Shown in pieces: positions 2,397-11,011 of a stretch of DNA of 64,000 bases. The DNA lies in contig NC_017956.1 of assembly GCF_000264455.2 (NCBI RefSeq), positions 1,905,501 to 1,969,500 on the forward strand, in the 5' to 3' direction. The notes under the pieces are model-generated. The model saw nothing but the letters and a program-made list of their open reading frames with translations, made no database searches and was not told where the DNA came from. Source of the stretch: Tistrella mobilis KA081020-065 (lineage in GTDB: Bacteria; Pseudomonadota; Alphaproteobacteria; Tistrellales; Tistrellaceae). The position numbers and the translations under genes are program-made. Numbering within the stretch: position 1 is the stretch's first letter; the number at the start of each line of letters is the position of its first letter.

Positions 2397-3599
2397 ATGG
2401 CATCGACCACCGAACCCGCCGCCGCTCCCCGCCAGGCCCCGCGCGGCCTGGCACGCGGCCCGCGCCGGCCGATCCTCCTGGCCCTGCTCGGCGATCGTGG
2501 CGGGCTGATCTTCATGGGGCTGATCGCGGCCTCCGCCGTGCTGATGCCGATCTCCGCCCTGGTGCTGCCGGCAGAGCATCCGCTGGCGATCCCGTCTTAC
2601 ATGGTGTCGCTGTTCGGCAAGTATCTCTGCTATGCGCTGCTTGCCCTCGCCCTCGATCTGGTCTGGGGCTATTGCGGCATCCTCAGCCTGGGTCACGGCG
2701 CCTTCTTCGCCCTGGGCGGCTATGCCATGGGCATGCATCTGATGCGCGAGATCGGCCCGCGCGGCGTCTATGGCAACCCGGTTCTGCCCGACTTCATGGT
2801 CTTCCTGAACTGGCAGGAACTGCCCTGGTACTGGCATGGCTTCGACATGGCCTGGTTCGCCATTCTGATGGCGCTGGTCGTGCCCGGCCTGCTCGCCTTC
2901 GTGCTCGGCTGGCTGTGCTTCCGGTCGCGGGTGACCGGCGTCTATCTGTCGATCATCACCCAGGCCATGACCTACGCCCTGCTGCTCGCCTTCTTCCGCA
3001 ATGACATGGGTTTCGGCGGCAATAACGGTCTCACGGACTTCAAGGACCTGTTCGGCTACAGCCTGCAGGCACCCGAGATGCGGGTGGCGCTTTATTCCGC
3101 CACCGCCATCGCCCTGGTCGGTGCCTATGCGCTCTCGCGCATCGTGGTGACCTCGAAGCTCGGCAAGGTGCTGGTCTCGATCCGCGACGCCGAAAGCCGG
3201 GTGCGCTTCCTGGGCTATCGGGTGGAGCACTACAAGCTCTTCGTCTTCGTGCTCTCGGCCATGCTGGCCGGCATTGCCGGTGCGCTCTATGTGCCGCAGG
3301 TCGGCATCATCAATCCGGGCGAGTTCGCCCCCGCCAACTCGATCGAAGCCGTGATCTGGGTGGCGGTCGGCGGCCGCGGCACGCTCTGGGGTGCCGCCCT
3401 GGGTGGTATCGCGGTCAACTGGGCAAAGACCTGGTTCACCGGCGCCCTGCCTGAATTCTGGCTCTTCGCCCTGGGGGCGCTGTTCGTTGCCGTGACGCTG
3501 TTCCTGCCCAAGGGGCTGGTCGGCCGGCTGCCGGCCTTCCCCACCTTCGGCCGCCGCCGCGAGGCCGTCCCCCCCGCCGCCACGGAGGACCGCGGATGA
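2397..3599 (+). CDS. urtC: Urea ABC transporter permease UrtC
   Basis: Second permease subunit of the urea importer, 400 residues and LivM-like, with about ten hydrophobic segments. The motif CGILSLGHGAFFALGGY near residue 95 and the segment VAVGGRGTLWGAALGG near residue 325 are typical of branched-chain amino acid/urea permeases. The N-terminal 30 residues are Pro/Arg/Ala-rich and probably cytoplasmic. The ATG lies 9 nt after a GGAGG. The stop overlaps the urtD start (ATGA), so the two are probably translationally coupled. Confidence 0.95.
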   Translation: MASTTEPAAAPRQAPRGLARGPRRPILLALLGDRGGLIFMGLIAASAVLMPISALVLPAEHPLAIPSYMVSLFGKYLCYALLALALDLVWGYCGILSLGHGAFFALGGYAMGMHLMREIGPRGVYGNPVLPDFMVFLNWQELPWYWHGFDMAWFAILMALVVPGLLAFVLGWLCFRSRVTGVYLSIITQAMTYALLLAFFRNDMGFGGNNGLTDFKDLFGYSLQAPEMRVALYSATAIALVGAYALSRIVVTSKLGKVLVSIRDAESRVRFLGYRVEHYKLFVFVLSAMLAGIAGALYVPQVGIINPGEFAPANSIEAVIWVAVGGRGTLWGAALGGIAVNWAKTWFTGALPEFWLFALGALFVAVTLFLPKGLVGRLPAFPTFGRRREAVPPAATEDRG

Positions 3600-4399
3600 C
3601 CGTGCATACCGCCGACCTGCTGGCAGATGCCGGCACCGCACCCGACGGTGGCCGCAGCCCCCGGGGCAGTGCCCTTTATCTCGACGGCGTGACCGTCAGC
3701 TTCGACGGCTTCCGGGCCCTGAATGAGCTGTCGCTGGTGGTCGATCACGGCGAGCTTCGCGCCGTGATCGGCCCCAACGGCGCCGGCAAGACCACGATGA
3801 TGGATGTGATGACCGGCAAGACCCGGCCAGACAAGGGCAAGGTCCTGCTCGACGGTTCGATCGATCTCACGAAGCTCGACGAGGCGCGCATCGCCACCCT
3901 TGGCATCGGCCGCAAATTCCAGAAGCCCAGCGTCTTCGAGACCCATACCGTGGTCGACAATCTGGAACTGGCGCTTGCCGGTGATCGCGGCCCGTTTGCG
4001 GCCCTCAAATTCCGGCGCACCGCCGACAAGGCCGCGCGGATCGAGGCGGTTCTAGAGGACATCGCCCTCGCCCACCGCGCCCATGAACCCGCGGGCCGTC
4101 TCAGCCACGGCCAGAAACAGTGGCTGGAAATCGGCATGCTGCTGATGCAACAGCCGCGGGTGCTGCTGGTCGATGAACCGGCAGCCGGCATGACCGATGC
4201 CGAAACCTCACAGACCGCCGTGCTGCTGAAGCGCCTGGCGCAGTCTCATGCGGTGATCGTGGTCGAACACGATATGGGCTTCGTGCGCGATCTGGACTGC
4301 AAGGTGACCGTGCTGCACGAAGGCTCGGTGCTCGCCGAAGGCTCTCTCGACCATGTCCAGGCCGACCAGCGGGTCGTGGACGTCTATCTCGGCCGCTGA
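3596..4399 (+). CDS. urtD: Urea ABC transporter ATP-binding protein UrtD
   Basis: Cytoplasmic ATPase subunit, 267 residues. Walker A GPNGAGKTT is at residues 59-67, the signature appears as LSHGQKQWLEIG, and Walker B as VLLVDEPAAGM; LivG/UrtD proteins share the AGMT tail after Walker B. The first 25 residues before the ABC domain are not conserved. It overlaps urtC by 4 nt and precedes urtE by 15 nt. With UrtE it forms the heterodimeric ATPase that powers urea import. Confidence 0.95.
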   Translation: MTVHTADLLADAGTAPDGGRSPRGSALYLDGVTVSFDGFRALNELSLVVDHGELRAVIGPNGAGKTTMMDVMTGKTRPDKGKVLLDGSIDLTKLDEARIATLGIGRKFQKPSVFETHTVVDNLELALAGDRGPFAALKFRRTADKAARIEAVLEDIALAHRAHEPAGRLSHGQKQWLEIGMLLMQQPRVLLVDEPAAGMTDAETSQTAVLLKRLAQSHAVIVVEHDMGFVRDLDCKVTVLHEGSVLAEGSLDHVQADQRVVDVYLGR

Positions 4400-4414
4400 C
4401 GGAGGCTTGCACCC

Positions 4415-5110
4415 ATGCTCGACGTTCATGCGCTGGACGTGCATTACGGTTCGGCCCAGGCGCTCAAGGGCGTCTCGATCGAGGCCCGCGCCGGCGAGGT
4501 CACCTGCGTGCTCGGCCGCAACGGTGTCGGCAAGACCACGCTGATGCGCGCAATCACAGGCCATCTGAAGCCCTCGGGCGGCAGCATCAAGCTGGATGGC
4601 GCCGATCTTGCCGGCCGCGCGCCCTATGACCGGGCCCGGTCCGGCATCGGCTTCGTGCCCCAGGGCCGCGAGGTCTTTCCGCTGCTGACGGTGGAAGAGA
4701 ACCTGCGCACCGGCCTCGCCGCCCGGCCACGCAAGCTGGAGCGGAAGATCCCGGACGACATCTTCGCGCTCTTCCCCGTGCTCAAATCCATGCTCGGCCG
4801 CCGGGGTGGCGACCTGTCCGGCGGCCAGCAGCAGCAGCTCGCCATCGGCCGCGCGCTCGTCACCGCCCCCAAGCTGCTGGTCCTGGACGAGCCGACCGAG
4901 GGTATCCAGCCCTCGATCATCAAGGATATCGGCCGGGTGATCCGGCTGCTTGCCCGGGAACGGGGGCTTGCGGTGGTCCTCGTTGAGCAGTATTTCGATT
5001 TTGCCCAGGAGCTTGCGGATCGCTTCATCGTGCTGGATCGCGGTGAGGTGATCGCCGCCGGAGACGGGGCAGCCCTCGACGACGACATCCGTCGCCACCT
5101 CACCGTCTGA
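4415..5110 (+). CDS. urtE: Urea ABC transporter ATP-binding protein UrtE
   Basis: Second ATPase subunit, 231 residues, LivF-like. Walker A GRNGVGKTT is near residues 34-42, the signature is LSGGQQQQLAIGRAL, and Walker B LLVLDEPTEGIQPS. The phrase TEGIQPSI after Walker B is characteristic of UrtE. It is the last transporter gene; ureD begins 18 nt after its stop, which places transport and urease genes in one transcription unit. Confidence 0.96.
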   Translation: MLDVHALDVHYGSAQALKGVSIEARAGEVTCVLGRNGVGKTTLMRAITGHLKPSGGSIKLDGADLAGRAPYDRARSGIGFVPQGREVFPLLTVEENLRTGLAARPRKLERKIPDDIFALFPVLKSMLGRRGGDLSGGQQQQLAIGRALVTAPKLLVLDEPTEGIQPSIIKDIGRVIRLLARERGLAVVLVEQYFDFAQELADRFIVLDRGEVIAAGDGAALDDDIRRHLTV

Positions 5111-5128: not shown

Positions 5129-6085
5129 GTGCAGATTCCCAAAGACGATGCGGCTCGTGCCCGGCGTGCCGCCCTGGATTGCGGCCGTCTGACCCTGGTG
5201 ATGGGCCCCGCTCCCACTGCCAGGCGTGGCCTGCGCGACCTTGTCCAGCAGGTGCCCTATCGGGCGCTCTTCCCCCATGCGGAACCCGGCGAGCCGCCGA
5301 TGGTGGTGGTCACCAGCACCTCGGGCGGTATCGTGGGCGGCGACCGGCTGGGGCTGGACGTGACGGTCGAGGACGGGGCCCGGCTGCTGCTGATGCCGCA
5401 GGCGGCAGAGCGCGTCTATCGGACGACCGGACCGGTTTCCACGATCGACAATCTGTTCCGGGTCGGTCGGCATGCCTGCTTCGAATGGCTGCCGCAGGAG
5501 ACGATCATCTACGACCGTGCCCGGTTCGAGCGTCGCACCCGACTAATGCTCGCCGATCAGACCTCTCGCGCCCTGTTCGGCGAGATACTCGTGCTCGGGC
5601 GGACTGCCCACGGTGAGAGCGTCCTCAGAGCACGATTGCGCGATGCCTGGGCAGTCGAGCGTGCAGGCAGGCTTGTGCTGGCCGATGCCTTCGACCTGGC
5701 AGAGGAGGATTTCGCCGCCGCCATCGCCAGCCCCTCCGCGCTGGGCGGCATGACCGCAATCGCAGGATTCTGCGGAATCGGCAGTCCGGGAGAGACCGCG
5801 GGCCAGGCGCTCCGCGACCGGTTGCGGCGGGAACTGGAAGCGGCTGAAGGCCCGGAGCCGGCTTTCGGCACGAAACATGCATCAAATGCAACAGGGTCCG
5901 CTGCGGATCCGGATGCCCTCACCCGTCCCATCGTCGGGATCGGTCTCGTCGACGGGTGTCTGGTGGTGCGGATGGCGGGGGGCGATGCCGCCCGTCTGAA
6001 GCGGGTTTTCGACCGGCTGTGGGCGGTGGCGCGGGCGGAACTTCTTCATCATCCACCGCGTTTGCCGCGCATCCGTCGCGGCTGA
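5129..6085 (+). CDS. ureD: Urease accessory protein UreD
   Basis: UreD (UreH) forms the UreDFG scaffold that delivers nickel to apo-urease. The GTG start at 5129 gives 318 residues. Family features are the [13 protein letters not shown] segment (about residues 55-67), the TQAAERVYR-like stretch [11 protein letters not shown], and the [16 protein letters not shown] motif. A patch near residues 245-265 is poorly conserved and may be a species-specific insertion. It precedes ureA by 67 nt. Start choice is moderately certain, since no ATG lies nearby in frame. Confidence 0.93.
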
Positions 6086-6152: not shown

Positions 6153-6455
6153 ATGCATCTGAGCCCTCGGGAGACGGAAAAACTGCTGATCGCCATGGCG
6201 GCCGAAGTGGCGCGAAAGCGCCGTGCCCGTGGCGTGAAGCTCAACTATCCGGAAGCGATTGCCCTGATCACCGATGTCGTGGTCGAAGGCGCCCGCGACG
6301 GCCGCAGCGTCGCCGATCTGATGGCGGCAGGCGGTCGGGTGCTCACCCGCGACGAGGTGATGCCGGGCATCCCCGAGATGATCGAACAGATCCAGGTCGA
6401 AGCGACCTTCCCCGACGGGACCAAACTGGTCACCGTCCACAACCCGATCCGCTGA
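6153..6455 (+). CDS. ureA: Urease subunit gamma UreA
   Basis: Small structural subunit of nickel urease (urea + H2O to ammonia and carbamate), 100 residues, the usual gamma length. It starts [12 protein letters not shown], contains [10 protein letters not shown] near residue 30 and ends in the standard VTVHNPI tail. ureB starts 10 nt downstream with a GAGGGGG element in between. Subunits A, B and C are separate here, as in most proteobacteria, not fused as in Helicobacter. Confidence 0.97.
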
Positions 6456-6465
6456 GGGGGCCAGG

Positions 6466-6864
6466 ATGACCGACACCACCCCGCCCCGCGCTGCTGCGGA
6501 TACCCCGTTCTCTCCCGACGCCGAAGGCCTGGCGCCGGGCGCGATCATCCCCGCCGCCGGAGTGATCACCCTGAATGCCGGCCGCCCGACCATAGAGATC
6601 GAGGTCGCGAACACCGGCGACCGGCCGGTGCAGGTCGGCTCACACTATCATTTCTATGAGACCAATACCGGGCTCACCTTCGATCGCCCGGCCGCTTACG
6701 GAATGCGTCTCGATATTCCCGCCGGCTCGGCCGTCCGCTTCGAACCCGGCCAGACCCGCAGCGTGCGCCTGGTCGCCTATCAGGGCGACCGGGTGGTGCA
6801 TGGCTTCGACGGTAAGGTGTCGGGCGCGCTCGGCGCCGCGGCACCCAAGGGCGGGGAGGGTTGA
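6466..6864 (+). CDS. ureB: Urease subunit beta UreB
   Basis: Beta subunit of urease, 132 residues, slightly longer than the common 100-106 because of an N-terminal extension of about 25 Ala/Pro-rich residues. The core motifs are present: PGAIIPA, the [19 protein letters not shown] block, and [13 protein letters not shown]. The ureC start lies 4 nt after the stop. The protein bridges gamma and alpha subunits in the (ABC)3 trimer. Confidence 0.97.
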
Positions 6865-6868
6865 ACCC

Positions 6869-8578
<1,710 letters not shown>

Positions 8579-8689: not shown

Positions 8690-9535
8690 ATGAAGATGAC
8701 CCAGCTTTCCGCCACGGCCGCCGCCGTCGAGAAGATCACGCCCCTGGTTCCCGAAGCCCCTCAGTCGGTCATGCCCAGGGCCGTGCAGGTGGTGACTGCT
8801 GCTTTGCCGGTTCTGGGCCCGGATGCCGCCTGGGGCACGATCACCCTGCCGCATGCCGACCGCCATCGCCGGCGGATCCGGCTTGCCACCGATGACGGCC
8901 GCGCCTTCCTGCTGGACCTGCGCGAGGCGGTCAGGCTGGCCGATGGTGACCGGCTGATGCTGGACCAGGGCGGCCATGTCGTGGTCCGGGCGGCACCCGA
9001 AGCGGTGATTGAAGCCGAAACTGCGGATCGGCGGGATCTCGTCCGCATCGCCTGGCATCTGGGCAACCGGCATGTGCCGCTGGCCGTTACCACCCATATC
9101 GTCACGCCGCGGCTGCGCATTTCCCGCGACCTGGTTGCCCGCGACCTGCTCGGCCGGCTGGGGGCGCATCTGACGGAGACCGTCGCCCCCTTCGATCCGG
9201 AACCGATCCTGGGGGCCGCCGGCATCGCGGCGGGGGATGAGCACGGTCATAGCCATGGGCATCACGATCACGGGCATCATGACCACGGCCATGCCATGAA
9301 GGCGAGCGCCGCCGTCGATCTGGTCGGCGGCACCGGTGCCGACACCGCCCGTGCGGCCTGGCAGATCGGCAACCGCCATCGGCCGGTGCAGGTGGTGGAC
9401 GGCTGGCGGATCCGGGCCTCGGATGAACCGCTTGTCCGCCGGATCGCCGCCGCGCTGGGGCTGCGTGTTCTGCCGGCGGCAGATGCCTTCGAGCCTGAAC
9501 CCGGTGCCTATGCCGATCACGGCCATCACCACTGA
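8690..9535 (+). CDS. ureE: Urease nickel metallochaperone UreE with duplicated C-terminal domain
   Basis: UreE binds nickel and passes it to UreG/urease. This protein has 281 residues against about 150-200 for the family. Residues 30-110 are the N-terminal domain and 113-175 a C-terminal metal-binding domain with GNRH at 125-128. A His-rich linker at 185-201 (HGHSHGHHDHGHHDHGH) follows, then a second C-terminal-type domain at about 219-275 with GNRH at 227-230, ending FEPEPGAYA and HGHHH. The two domains are diverged, so the duplication is not recent. The frame is continuous. The gene sits 111 nt after ureC and has an AGGAGA element about 12 nt before its ATG. Confidence 0.92.
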   Translation: MKMTQLSATAAAVEKITPLVPEAPQSVMPRAVQVVTAALPVLGPDAAWGTITLPHADRHRRRIRLATDDGRAFLLDLREAVRLADGDRLMLDQGGHVVVRAAPEAVIEAETADRRDLVRIAWHLGNRHVPLAVTTHIVTPRLRISRDLVARDLLGRLGAHLTETVAPFDPEPILGAAGIAAGDEHGHSHGHHDHGHHDHGHAMKASAAVDLVGGTGADTARAAWQIGNRHRPVQVVDGWRIRASDEPLVRRIAAALGLRVLPAADAFEPEPGAYADHGHHH

Positions 9536-9542
9536 TCCCGCC

Positions 9543-10298
9543 ATGACCGCCGAAGGACAGGCCCTGCTCTACGGATGGCCGGACGGACCCGCAGCTTGTG
9601 CAGTCACGACCGACGTGCAGGGCCTCCACCAGCTGCTCGCCTGGACCAGCCCCAGCTTCCCCATCGGTGCCTTCAGCTACAGTCACGGGCTGGAGCAGGC
9701 GGTCGAAGACGGCACGGTCGGCACGGCAGAAACGCTCGCTGCCTGGATCGACGGCGTCCTGCGCTTCGGGGCCGGGCGGACGGATGCCGGTTTCGCTGTG
9801 CGCGCCGCCCGCCAGGCCCGTGCCGGCGACATGGCCGGGCTTGTGGAAACCGCCATCGTCTCGTCCGCCCTGGTCCCCGCCGGCGAACGCGCCTTGGAGG
9901 CACGCCAGCAGGGACGGTCGTTCCTCCATGCGGTTGCCCGTGGCTGGGCGCTCGACAAAGCCGCGGACCTGGCGGCGCAGCTCGACGCTGTGGAGGTTCC
10001 CGTCACCCTGCCGGTTGCGGCAGGGGCCTGCGGCGGATGGGCCGGCCTGCCCGAAGACATGCTGATCGAAGCCCTTGTCCACGCCTTTGCCGCCAATCTC
10101 GTCTCGGCGGGCGTCCGGCTGGTGCCGCTGGGGCAGACCGATGGCCAGCGGGTGCTGGCGGCGCTGGGGCCTGTGATCGGTGCCGTGGCCACCGCCGCCC
10201 GCGCCAGGCCGGAGGCCGCTCCCGGCGGGGCTGCCATTCTTGCCGACATTGCCGCCCTTCGACACGAAACCCTCTATTCCAGGCTGTTCCGCTCATGA
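9543..10298 (+). CDS. ureF: Urease accessory protein UreF
   Basis: UreF joins UreD and UreG in the GTP-dependent nickel insertion complex. It contains the diagnostic [22 protein letters not shown] motif region near the N terminus and a helical, Ala-rich body; 251 residues. The ATG at 9543 is preferred; an in-frame ATG at 9510 inside the ureE 3' end would add 11 residues. The stop overlaps the ureG start (ATGA). The frame is open further upstream only as a shadow of ureE. Confidence 0.93.
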
Positions 10299-11011
10299 CC
10301 ACACTCTCCCCCGCGCCCATCCCGCTCACCCCCGAGCGTAGTTCCAGGCCCTTGCGCATCGGTGTCGGCGGCCCTGTCGGCTCGGGCAAGACCGCCCTTC
10401 TCGAAGTGCTCTGCCGCAGGCTGCGCGACAGCTATCGCATCGCGGCGATCACCAACGACATCTATACCCAGGAAGACGCGCAGATCCTGACGCGGGCCGG
10501 TGCGCTGGCACCAGAGCGGATCATGGGAGTGGAGACCGGCGGCTGCCCGCATACTGCGATCCGCGAGGATGCGTCGATCAATCTCGCAGCGGTGGCGGAG
10601 ATGAGCACCCGCTTCCCCGATCTGGAGCTCATCTTCGTCGAAAGCGGCGGCGACAATCTGTCGGCGACCTTCTCGCCCGAGCTTGCCGATATCACGGTCT
10701 ATGTGATCGATGTGGCGGCGGGCGAGAAGATCCCGCGCAAGGGCGGCCCCGGCATCACCCGATCGGATCTGCTGGTGATCAACAAAGTCGATCTGGCCCC
10801 CCTGGTCGGCGCCGATCTCGGGATCATGGAGCGGGATGCCGCCCGCATGCGCGGCCGCCGCCCCTTCCTGTTCACCAATATGAAGAGTGGCGCCGGCGTC
10901 GATGCCCTGATCGCCCGCCTGCTGGACCTGGGCGGGCTGGACGATCGGCTGGGCGTGTCGTCTGCGGCACCGCTGGATGTCGCGGCGGCCAGAGCCGAGG
11001 CCGCTGCCTGA
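10295..11011 (+). CDS. ureG: Urease accessory GTPase UreG
   Basis: SIMIBI-class GTPase that energises nickel transfer, 238 residues. The P-loop [11 protein letters not shown] is near residues 26-36. The nickel-binding [13 protein letters not shown], the [17 protein letters not shown] block and the NKVDLAP (guanine specificity) motif are all intact. The ATG overlaps the ureF stop by 4 nt. It is the last gene of the urease operon; the next gene is convergent and only 6 nt away, with no clear intrinsic terminator between them. Confidence 0.97.

Follow-up and report, generated by a model that had tools for sequence, protein, structure and literature searches.

The ureE gene of Tistrella mobilis KA081020-065 encodes a product that, judged from its sequence, is a urease nickel chaperone UreE with two C-terminal domains, for which a role in nickel delivery is predicted. 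The usual UreE layout has one C domain per chain, and the product departs from it in carrying two UreE_C domains in a single chain. The gene was analyzed within a stretch of 64,000 nucleotides (the window). The tandem arrangement is a conserved UreE variant and has so far been seen in one genus among the Pseudomonadota sampled. We lean towards the view that the UreE of this genus has been remodelled into a single-chain pseudo-dimer, with a nickel site of the Klebsiella aerogenes His96 type lying within one chain.

The gene occupies positions 8690-9535 of the plus strand, starts with ATG and encodes 281 amino acids arranged as UreE_N, UreE_C, His linker, UreE_C and His tail. The sole UreE_N domain (Pfam PF02814, E = 7.9e-14) is at positions 8822-8977 (residues 45-96). 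The first UreE_C domain (PF05194), D1, follows at 8999-9214 (residues 104-175), and the second (PF05194), D2, at 9308-9499 (residues 207-270). Both families, in the order PF02814 then PF05194, score above the Pfam gathering score, and the whole protein reaches 158.3 bits with the NCBIfam UreE equivalog NF009751, whose cut-off is 144. Each C domain has a GNRH motif, at residues 125-128 in D1 and 227-230 in D2. Its histidine, His128 (9071-9073) or His230 (9377-9379), corresponds to K. aerogenes His96 in the alignment to K. aerogenes UreE chains. D1 and D2 are joined by about 30-35 residues, which include a His-rich linker at 9242-9292 with 10 histidines in residues 185-201. In the alignment this linker falls in the same place as the C-terminal His stretch of other UreEs. 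Behind D2 lies a C-terminal arm, PGAYADHGHHH (9500-9532), made up of the family GAY motif and 4 histidines. The first-pass annotation had described two GNRH-containing domains flanking a His-rich linker and followed by a further His tail, and that layout is borne out. A separate start for D2 at an internal ATG, residue 203, was considered and rejected; the sister species has Thr there. Very long His tails occur in some other UreEs, with 131 residues past the C-domain match in L116, where the tail has GHKHDH-type repeats, and 83 in L014.

The surroundings of the gene are those of a urease operon. The plus strand carries ureD at 5129-6085 (PF01774, E = 1e-46), ureA at 6153-6455, ureB at 6466-6864 and ureC at 6869-8578 (the last three by NCBIfam match), then ureE, ureF at 9543-10298 (PF01730, E = 7e-36) and ureG at 10295-11011 (cobW/UreG in Pfam; TIGR00101). 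The gene thus lies between ureC and ureF in a cluster urtCDE-ureDABCEFG, in which ureABC, ureD, ureF and ureG are all present. Immediately upstream of ureD, at 2397-5110 and again on the plus strand, are urtC, urtD and urtE, the genes of a urea ABC transporter. The genome measures 6.5 Mb in 5 contigs. A second ureE in it, as a partner or a source of D2, was sought and rejected, only one UreE-like ORF being found. HypA was looked for as a nickel donor, and PF01155 has no match in the genome.

Each of the two C-terminal segments is recognized as UreE_C when taken alone. The D1 segment (window positions 9020-9235) scores 62.0 bits (E = 6.4e-17) and the D2 segment (9290-9532) 56.1 bits (E = 4.4e-15), against a Pfam cut-off of 23 bits. 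Aligned directly, D1 and D2 share 20 identities over 54 aligned positions with a BLOSUM62 score of 88, where 1000 shuffles gave a mean of 24, a standard deviation of 4.7 and a maximum of 49 (Z = 13.6). By this sequence comparison their resemblance is far beyond chance. The earlier assignment of both segments to the UreE C-terminal domain is thereby confirmed, and the possibility raised with it, that the second segment is unrelated to that domain, was tested and did not materialize.

The order of the source organism is represented by 3 genomes of a single genus. Besides the genome of the window, these are a further one from its species and one, at 93% identity, from a second species. The tandem ORF is present in all three genomes, hence in 2 species. 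In the class sample UreE_C was found in 106 of 385 genomes, and two copies in one frame only in those three. In the phylum sample, where genomes with more than one match received a second search, UreE_C occurs in 147 of 398 genomes among the matches listed, and the tandem only in the window's genome. The class of genome G613 has UreE_C in 85 of 369 genomes and the tandem in none. The two genomes of this class that have two UreE_C matches, G613 and G982, carry them on separate contigs and at a distance of roughly 128 kb. Ten genomes from outside the genus gave more than one match in the class and phylum samples; a repeat search of them showed the matches to lie, without exception, on separate contigs or at a large distance from each other. 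Counted by hand and with weak matches admitted, 318 distinct genomes of these Pseudomonadota samples have UreE_C; no tandem was found in the approximately 315 of these that lie outside the genus. An all-frame scan of the window and 147 loci detected UreE_C everywhere except in L015 and L016, so that 145 of the loci have it; apart from the window itself, the tandem was confined to copies or orthologues of it (L001, L127 and L002). In a plasmid collection 75 records had a match, and no single place in any of them accounted for 80% of the query. Tandem UreE_C was also absent from the titles and abstract openings of the literature searched, a coverage that takes in few subscription papers.

Selection was assessed by NG86 dN/dS between two species (G000 vs G001). 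The ratio is 0.021 for the N domain, 0.016 for D1, which is the most tightly constrained part, 0.246 for the His linker and 0.089 for D2. Between the species D2 differs by 6 nonsynonymous and 19 synonymous changes (binomial p = 4e-7 vs neutral site counts). For the neighboring genes as wholes the ratios are 0.086 (ureB) and 0.090 (ureF). D2 is thus under purifying selection, with a constraint equal to that of the whole of ureB or ureF. Since the architecture is intact in 3 of 3 genomes of the genus and D2 is under purifying selection, the tandem is not an assembly artefact. The synonymous rate is itself uneven along ureE, with a dS of 0.83 in D1 as against 0.37 in the N domain and 0.47 in D2, which reflects either recombination or chance.

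The origin of D2 is a separate matter. A ranking in which most other UreEs came ahead of D1 as partners of D2 (D1 being 127th of 143) was rejected as a biased comparison, because the other rows had kept their GAY and His tails and D1 had not, and some genes were present twice. With tail-free, deduplicated cores D2 scores 81 against D1 and a mean of 85 against 129 others, 86 of which score above D1; the other loci lean towards D1, because 80 loci were chosen by the whole query. The distance of D2 from D1 is therefore about the same as its distance from the others. In a tree of 101 of 141 rows and 68 columns D1 and D2 stand apart, both on long branches. A tree holding D1 and D2 as one clade is not rejected by the AU test (p = 0.55) and is 3.0 log units better. 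On these sequence comparisons D2 may have arisen in place by duplication or have been gained through fusion with a second UreE. The first-pass annotation had spoken of a diverged duplicated domain that has long been kept. Of that, the keeping of D2 by purifying selection stands, but a descent from D1 is only one of the possible origins on the scores and the tree, and 'duplicated domain' is therefore to be read as 'second UreE_C domain'.

The residues of D1 and D2 were compared with 137 other UreE_C rows, which represent 129 distinct cores and have 22 columns in which at least 85% of rows share one residue. Both D1 and D2 keep the Arg, the Ala, the Trp, Gly-Asn-Arg-His, Leu-Gly and Phe-x-Pro-Glu. 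The interfacial nickel-ligand histidine (KaHis96), which is His in about 98% of the other rows, is H128 in D1 and H230 in D2. D2 has Gln225 in place of the histidine that precedes LGNRH (His in 96% of other rows) and is altered at five more strongly conserved columns, namely Ile, Asp, Val, Met and Pro (columns 42, 45, 47, 51 and 65). D1 is altered at the Met column and has lost the GAY tyrosine, which D2 keeps as Y274; the assignment of Gly-Ala of this motif in D1 depends on the alignment, D1 having two extra residues. At the KaHis112 column, His in 86% of the other rows, D1 has Leu148 and D2 has Pro247, and neither copy has the K. aerogenes-type secondary site of KaHis110 plus KaHis112. D1 also has a 4-residue insertion right after GNRH (residues 131-134, positions 9080-9091), which is occupied in 3 of 100 rows and lies within a strand whose counterpart in Proteus mirabilis UreE contributes to the dimer interface. 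For this reason the dimer face is considered altered. When the P. mirabilis dimer span is mapped by hand, to residues 114-135 in D1 and 216-237 in D2, D2 has the consensus residue at 10 of 21 interface-span positions as against 12 of 47 in the rest of the domain, a difference short of significance (Fisher p = 0.09); for D1 the numbers are 12 of 21 and 22 of 47 (p = 0.6). A better keeping of the D2 consensus in the interface span is suggestive only.

Several genomes have second, separate UreE loci with departures in the same region. L138, L139, L140 and L141 are such loci of G528, G513, G282 and G506, all of one other alphaproteobacterial family. Their GNRH region reads WQLG(S/G)(N/S)H, with Gln in the same place as Q225 of D2. 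In L143 and L144, second separate UreE genes of G164 and G261, the region reads LGARGVP, with another residue in place of the nickel-ligand histidine, a change that suggests decay or a function unrelated to nickel.

An AlphaFold2 prediction of the full-length protein with 100 aligned rows has a mean pLDDT of 77.6, a pTM of 0.67 and 195 of 281 residues at 70 or above. The part formed by the N domain and D1 resembles 14 solved UreE entries (Z = 9.5-13.2), the best match being model residues 28-176 to 9zlo_A (Z = 13.2, rmsd 2.1, 143 aligned, 31% identity). D2 is predicted to comprise a strand (209-212), a helix (216-227), two strands (233-236 and 240-243), a helix (246-256) and a strand (259-262), a β-α-β-β-α-β order that is the same as in the model of D1. 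For residues 104-281 modelled alone, AlphaFold2 gives a pTM of 0.75 and 134 of 178 residues at a pLDDT of at least 70; most ten-residue blocks of D1 and D2 have pLDDT values of 88-92, and the lowest domain blocks 77-78. This fragment model was built on 55 aligned rows in which D2 is covered by 3 rows of the genus only, so that no inter-chain signal from homologues stands behind it. By an arithmetic estimate (one domain being about 70 of the 178 residues), a fragment whose domains had no fixed relation would have a pTM near 0.4, and on the same estimate 0.75 suggests a value near the ceiling for both domains placed together. The model thus suggests a firm placement of D1 against D2 within the chain. 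In structural comparisons of the fragment, UreE chains align to D1 only, and D2 draws other ferredoxin-like chains; for this reason the UreE fold of D2 rests on its sequence and its predicted elements. MAFFT alignments with at least 10 homologue rows place those rows on D1 instead of D2. Among the matches listed by Foldseek and VIA-align, no single PDB chain spans both domains of the fragment closely, a negative of little weight.

In an ordinary UreE, as described in PMC13044922 and PMC7055735, two chains meet head to head, C-terminal domain to C-terminal domain, and each contributes its GNRH histidine to the grip on one interfacial nickel. In every UreE characterized so far, the review PMC7055735 states, one conserved histidine together with others binds the nickel at the dimer interface; the same review notes that loss of the His tail leaves K. 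aerogenes UreE functional. According to PMC13044922, the dimer of P. mirabilis UreE is made by helix α3 and strand β8, which starts at the GNRH histidine, and the C-terminal arm of one chain contacts α3 of the other; in Helicobacter pylori UreE it is the N domain that binds UreG.

In the tandem protein the His-rich linker ties D1 to D2, and the two would most likely pack together within the chain, with His128 and His230 forming the interfacial nickel site. The 10 linker histidines and the 4-His tail would probably collect nickel, by analogy with His tails elsewhere, and the single N domain would dock one UreG, to which the nickel would pass. With one N domain there would be one UreG docking place per nickel site. 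We infer packing by the known face, nickel binding at this site and the one-UreG stoichiometry. The pseudo-dimer is the simplest reading because both GNRH histidines are kept, both C domains are predicted to be folded, the linker is long and the placement is confident. Losses differ between the two domains as well (the histidine before LGNRH in D2, the GAY tyrosine in D1), which would be expected if each had to serve one side only and the halves no longer needed to match. The intramolecular pseudo-dimer proposed in the first-pass annotation finds agreement in the predicted placement of D1 and D2 in one chain, but not as regards packing by the known dimer face; nor does the greater nickel load that the annotation also considered find such agreement. 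The pseudo-dimer is weakened by the divergence of D2 outside the interface span and at strongly conserved columns, the non-significant enrichment in its interface span, the altered dimer-face strand of D1 and, on the side of the models, the matching of UreE chains to D1 alone.

Part of this evidence would suit an ordinary two-chain dimer formed through D1, in which D2 and the His stretches serve as a nickel store or buffer or as a contact surface for UreG or urease. The N domain, D1 and the His stretch are already laid out like an ordinary UreE, the constraint is tightest on D1, and PMC7055735 and PMC13044922 describe His tails that raise the nickel capacity of K. aerogenes and P. mirabilis UreE. 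A mere store would have no need of a folded GNRH domain, however, and the fragment model fixes D2 relative to D1. Moreover, the altered interface strand of D1 argues against an unchanged homodimer, and the interface helix and GNRH of D2 are somewhat better kept than its remainder, although not significantly. We regard this arrangement as unlikely, though it deserves serious attention.

Lower still is the probability of a domain swap, in which D1 of one chain pairs with D2 of the other to give four C domains, two sites and two N domains. The linker is long enough for this, the two N domains would retain the usual two UreG docking sites, and UreE tetramers (dimers of dimers) are known in other species according to PMC7055735. 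On the other hand, the prediction for the single chain is confident without a partner. A flexible linker usually favors pairing within the chain. The divergence of D2, and nothing else that was found, would fit a sequencing-induced fusion or a neutral leftover. The fusion had been named in the first-pass annotation as a possible objection, and did not prove to be the case. The same frame in three assemblies, one of a second species, and the constraint on D2, with its frame and GNRH intact, make either a fusion or a decaying remnant very unlikely.

For the single-chain pseudo-dimer, a more specific form can be considered, in which one site is built from non-identical halves, one UreG docking domain replaces two, and the hand-over of nickel is possibly directional. 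We hold this asymmetric form as tentative, at somewhat less than an even chance. If the single-chain reading is true, the protein is a natural single-chain UreE, the two-fold symmetry of UreE is dispensable, and nickel is handed over by one chaperone to one UreG. The tandem gene separates the halves of the nickel site genetically, so that each histidine or half-interface can be mutated alone, which is impossible in a homodimer. It opens to direct test the role of symmetry, the ratio of UreE to UreG and the route by which nickel travels from the His-rich stretch to the interface site.

Like the UreEs of K. aerogenes and P. mirabilis (PDB 1gmu, 1gmv, 1gmw and 9zlo), the tandem protein has an N domain, a ferredoxin-like GNRH C domain and a His-rich tail. 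Those proteins have one C domain and dimerize between chains, whereas here there are two C domains per chain; for His112 of the secondary KaHis110/KaHis112 site neither copy has a counterpart (L148, P247). The UreEs of H. pylori and Sporosarcina pasteurii, as described in PMC7055735 and PMC13044922, share with it the GNRH interfacial nickel site and a lack of the KaHis110/112 site, but have one C domain and no His-rich tail. Other alphaproteobacterial UreEs have the same N domain, first C domain and then a His stretch; those surveyed outside the genus have no second UreE_C in the same frame, and it is by this second domain that the UreE of the genus differs from them.
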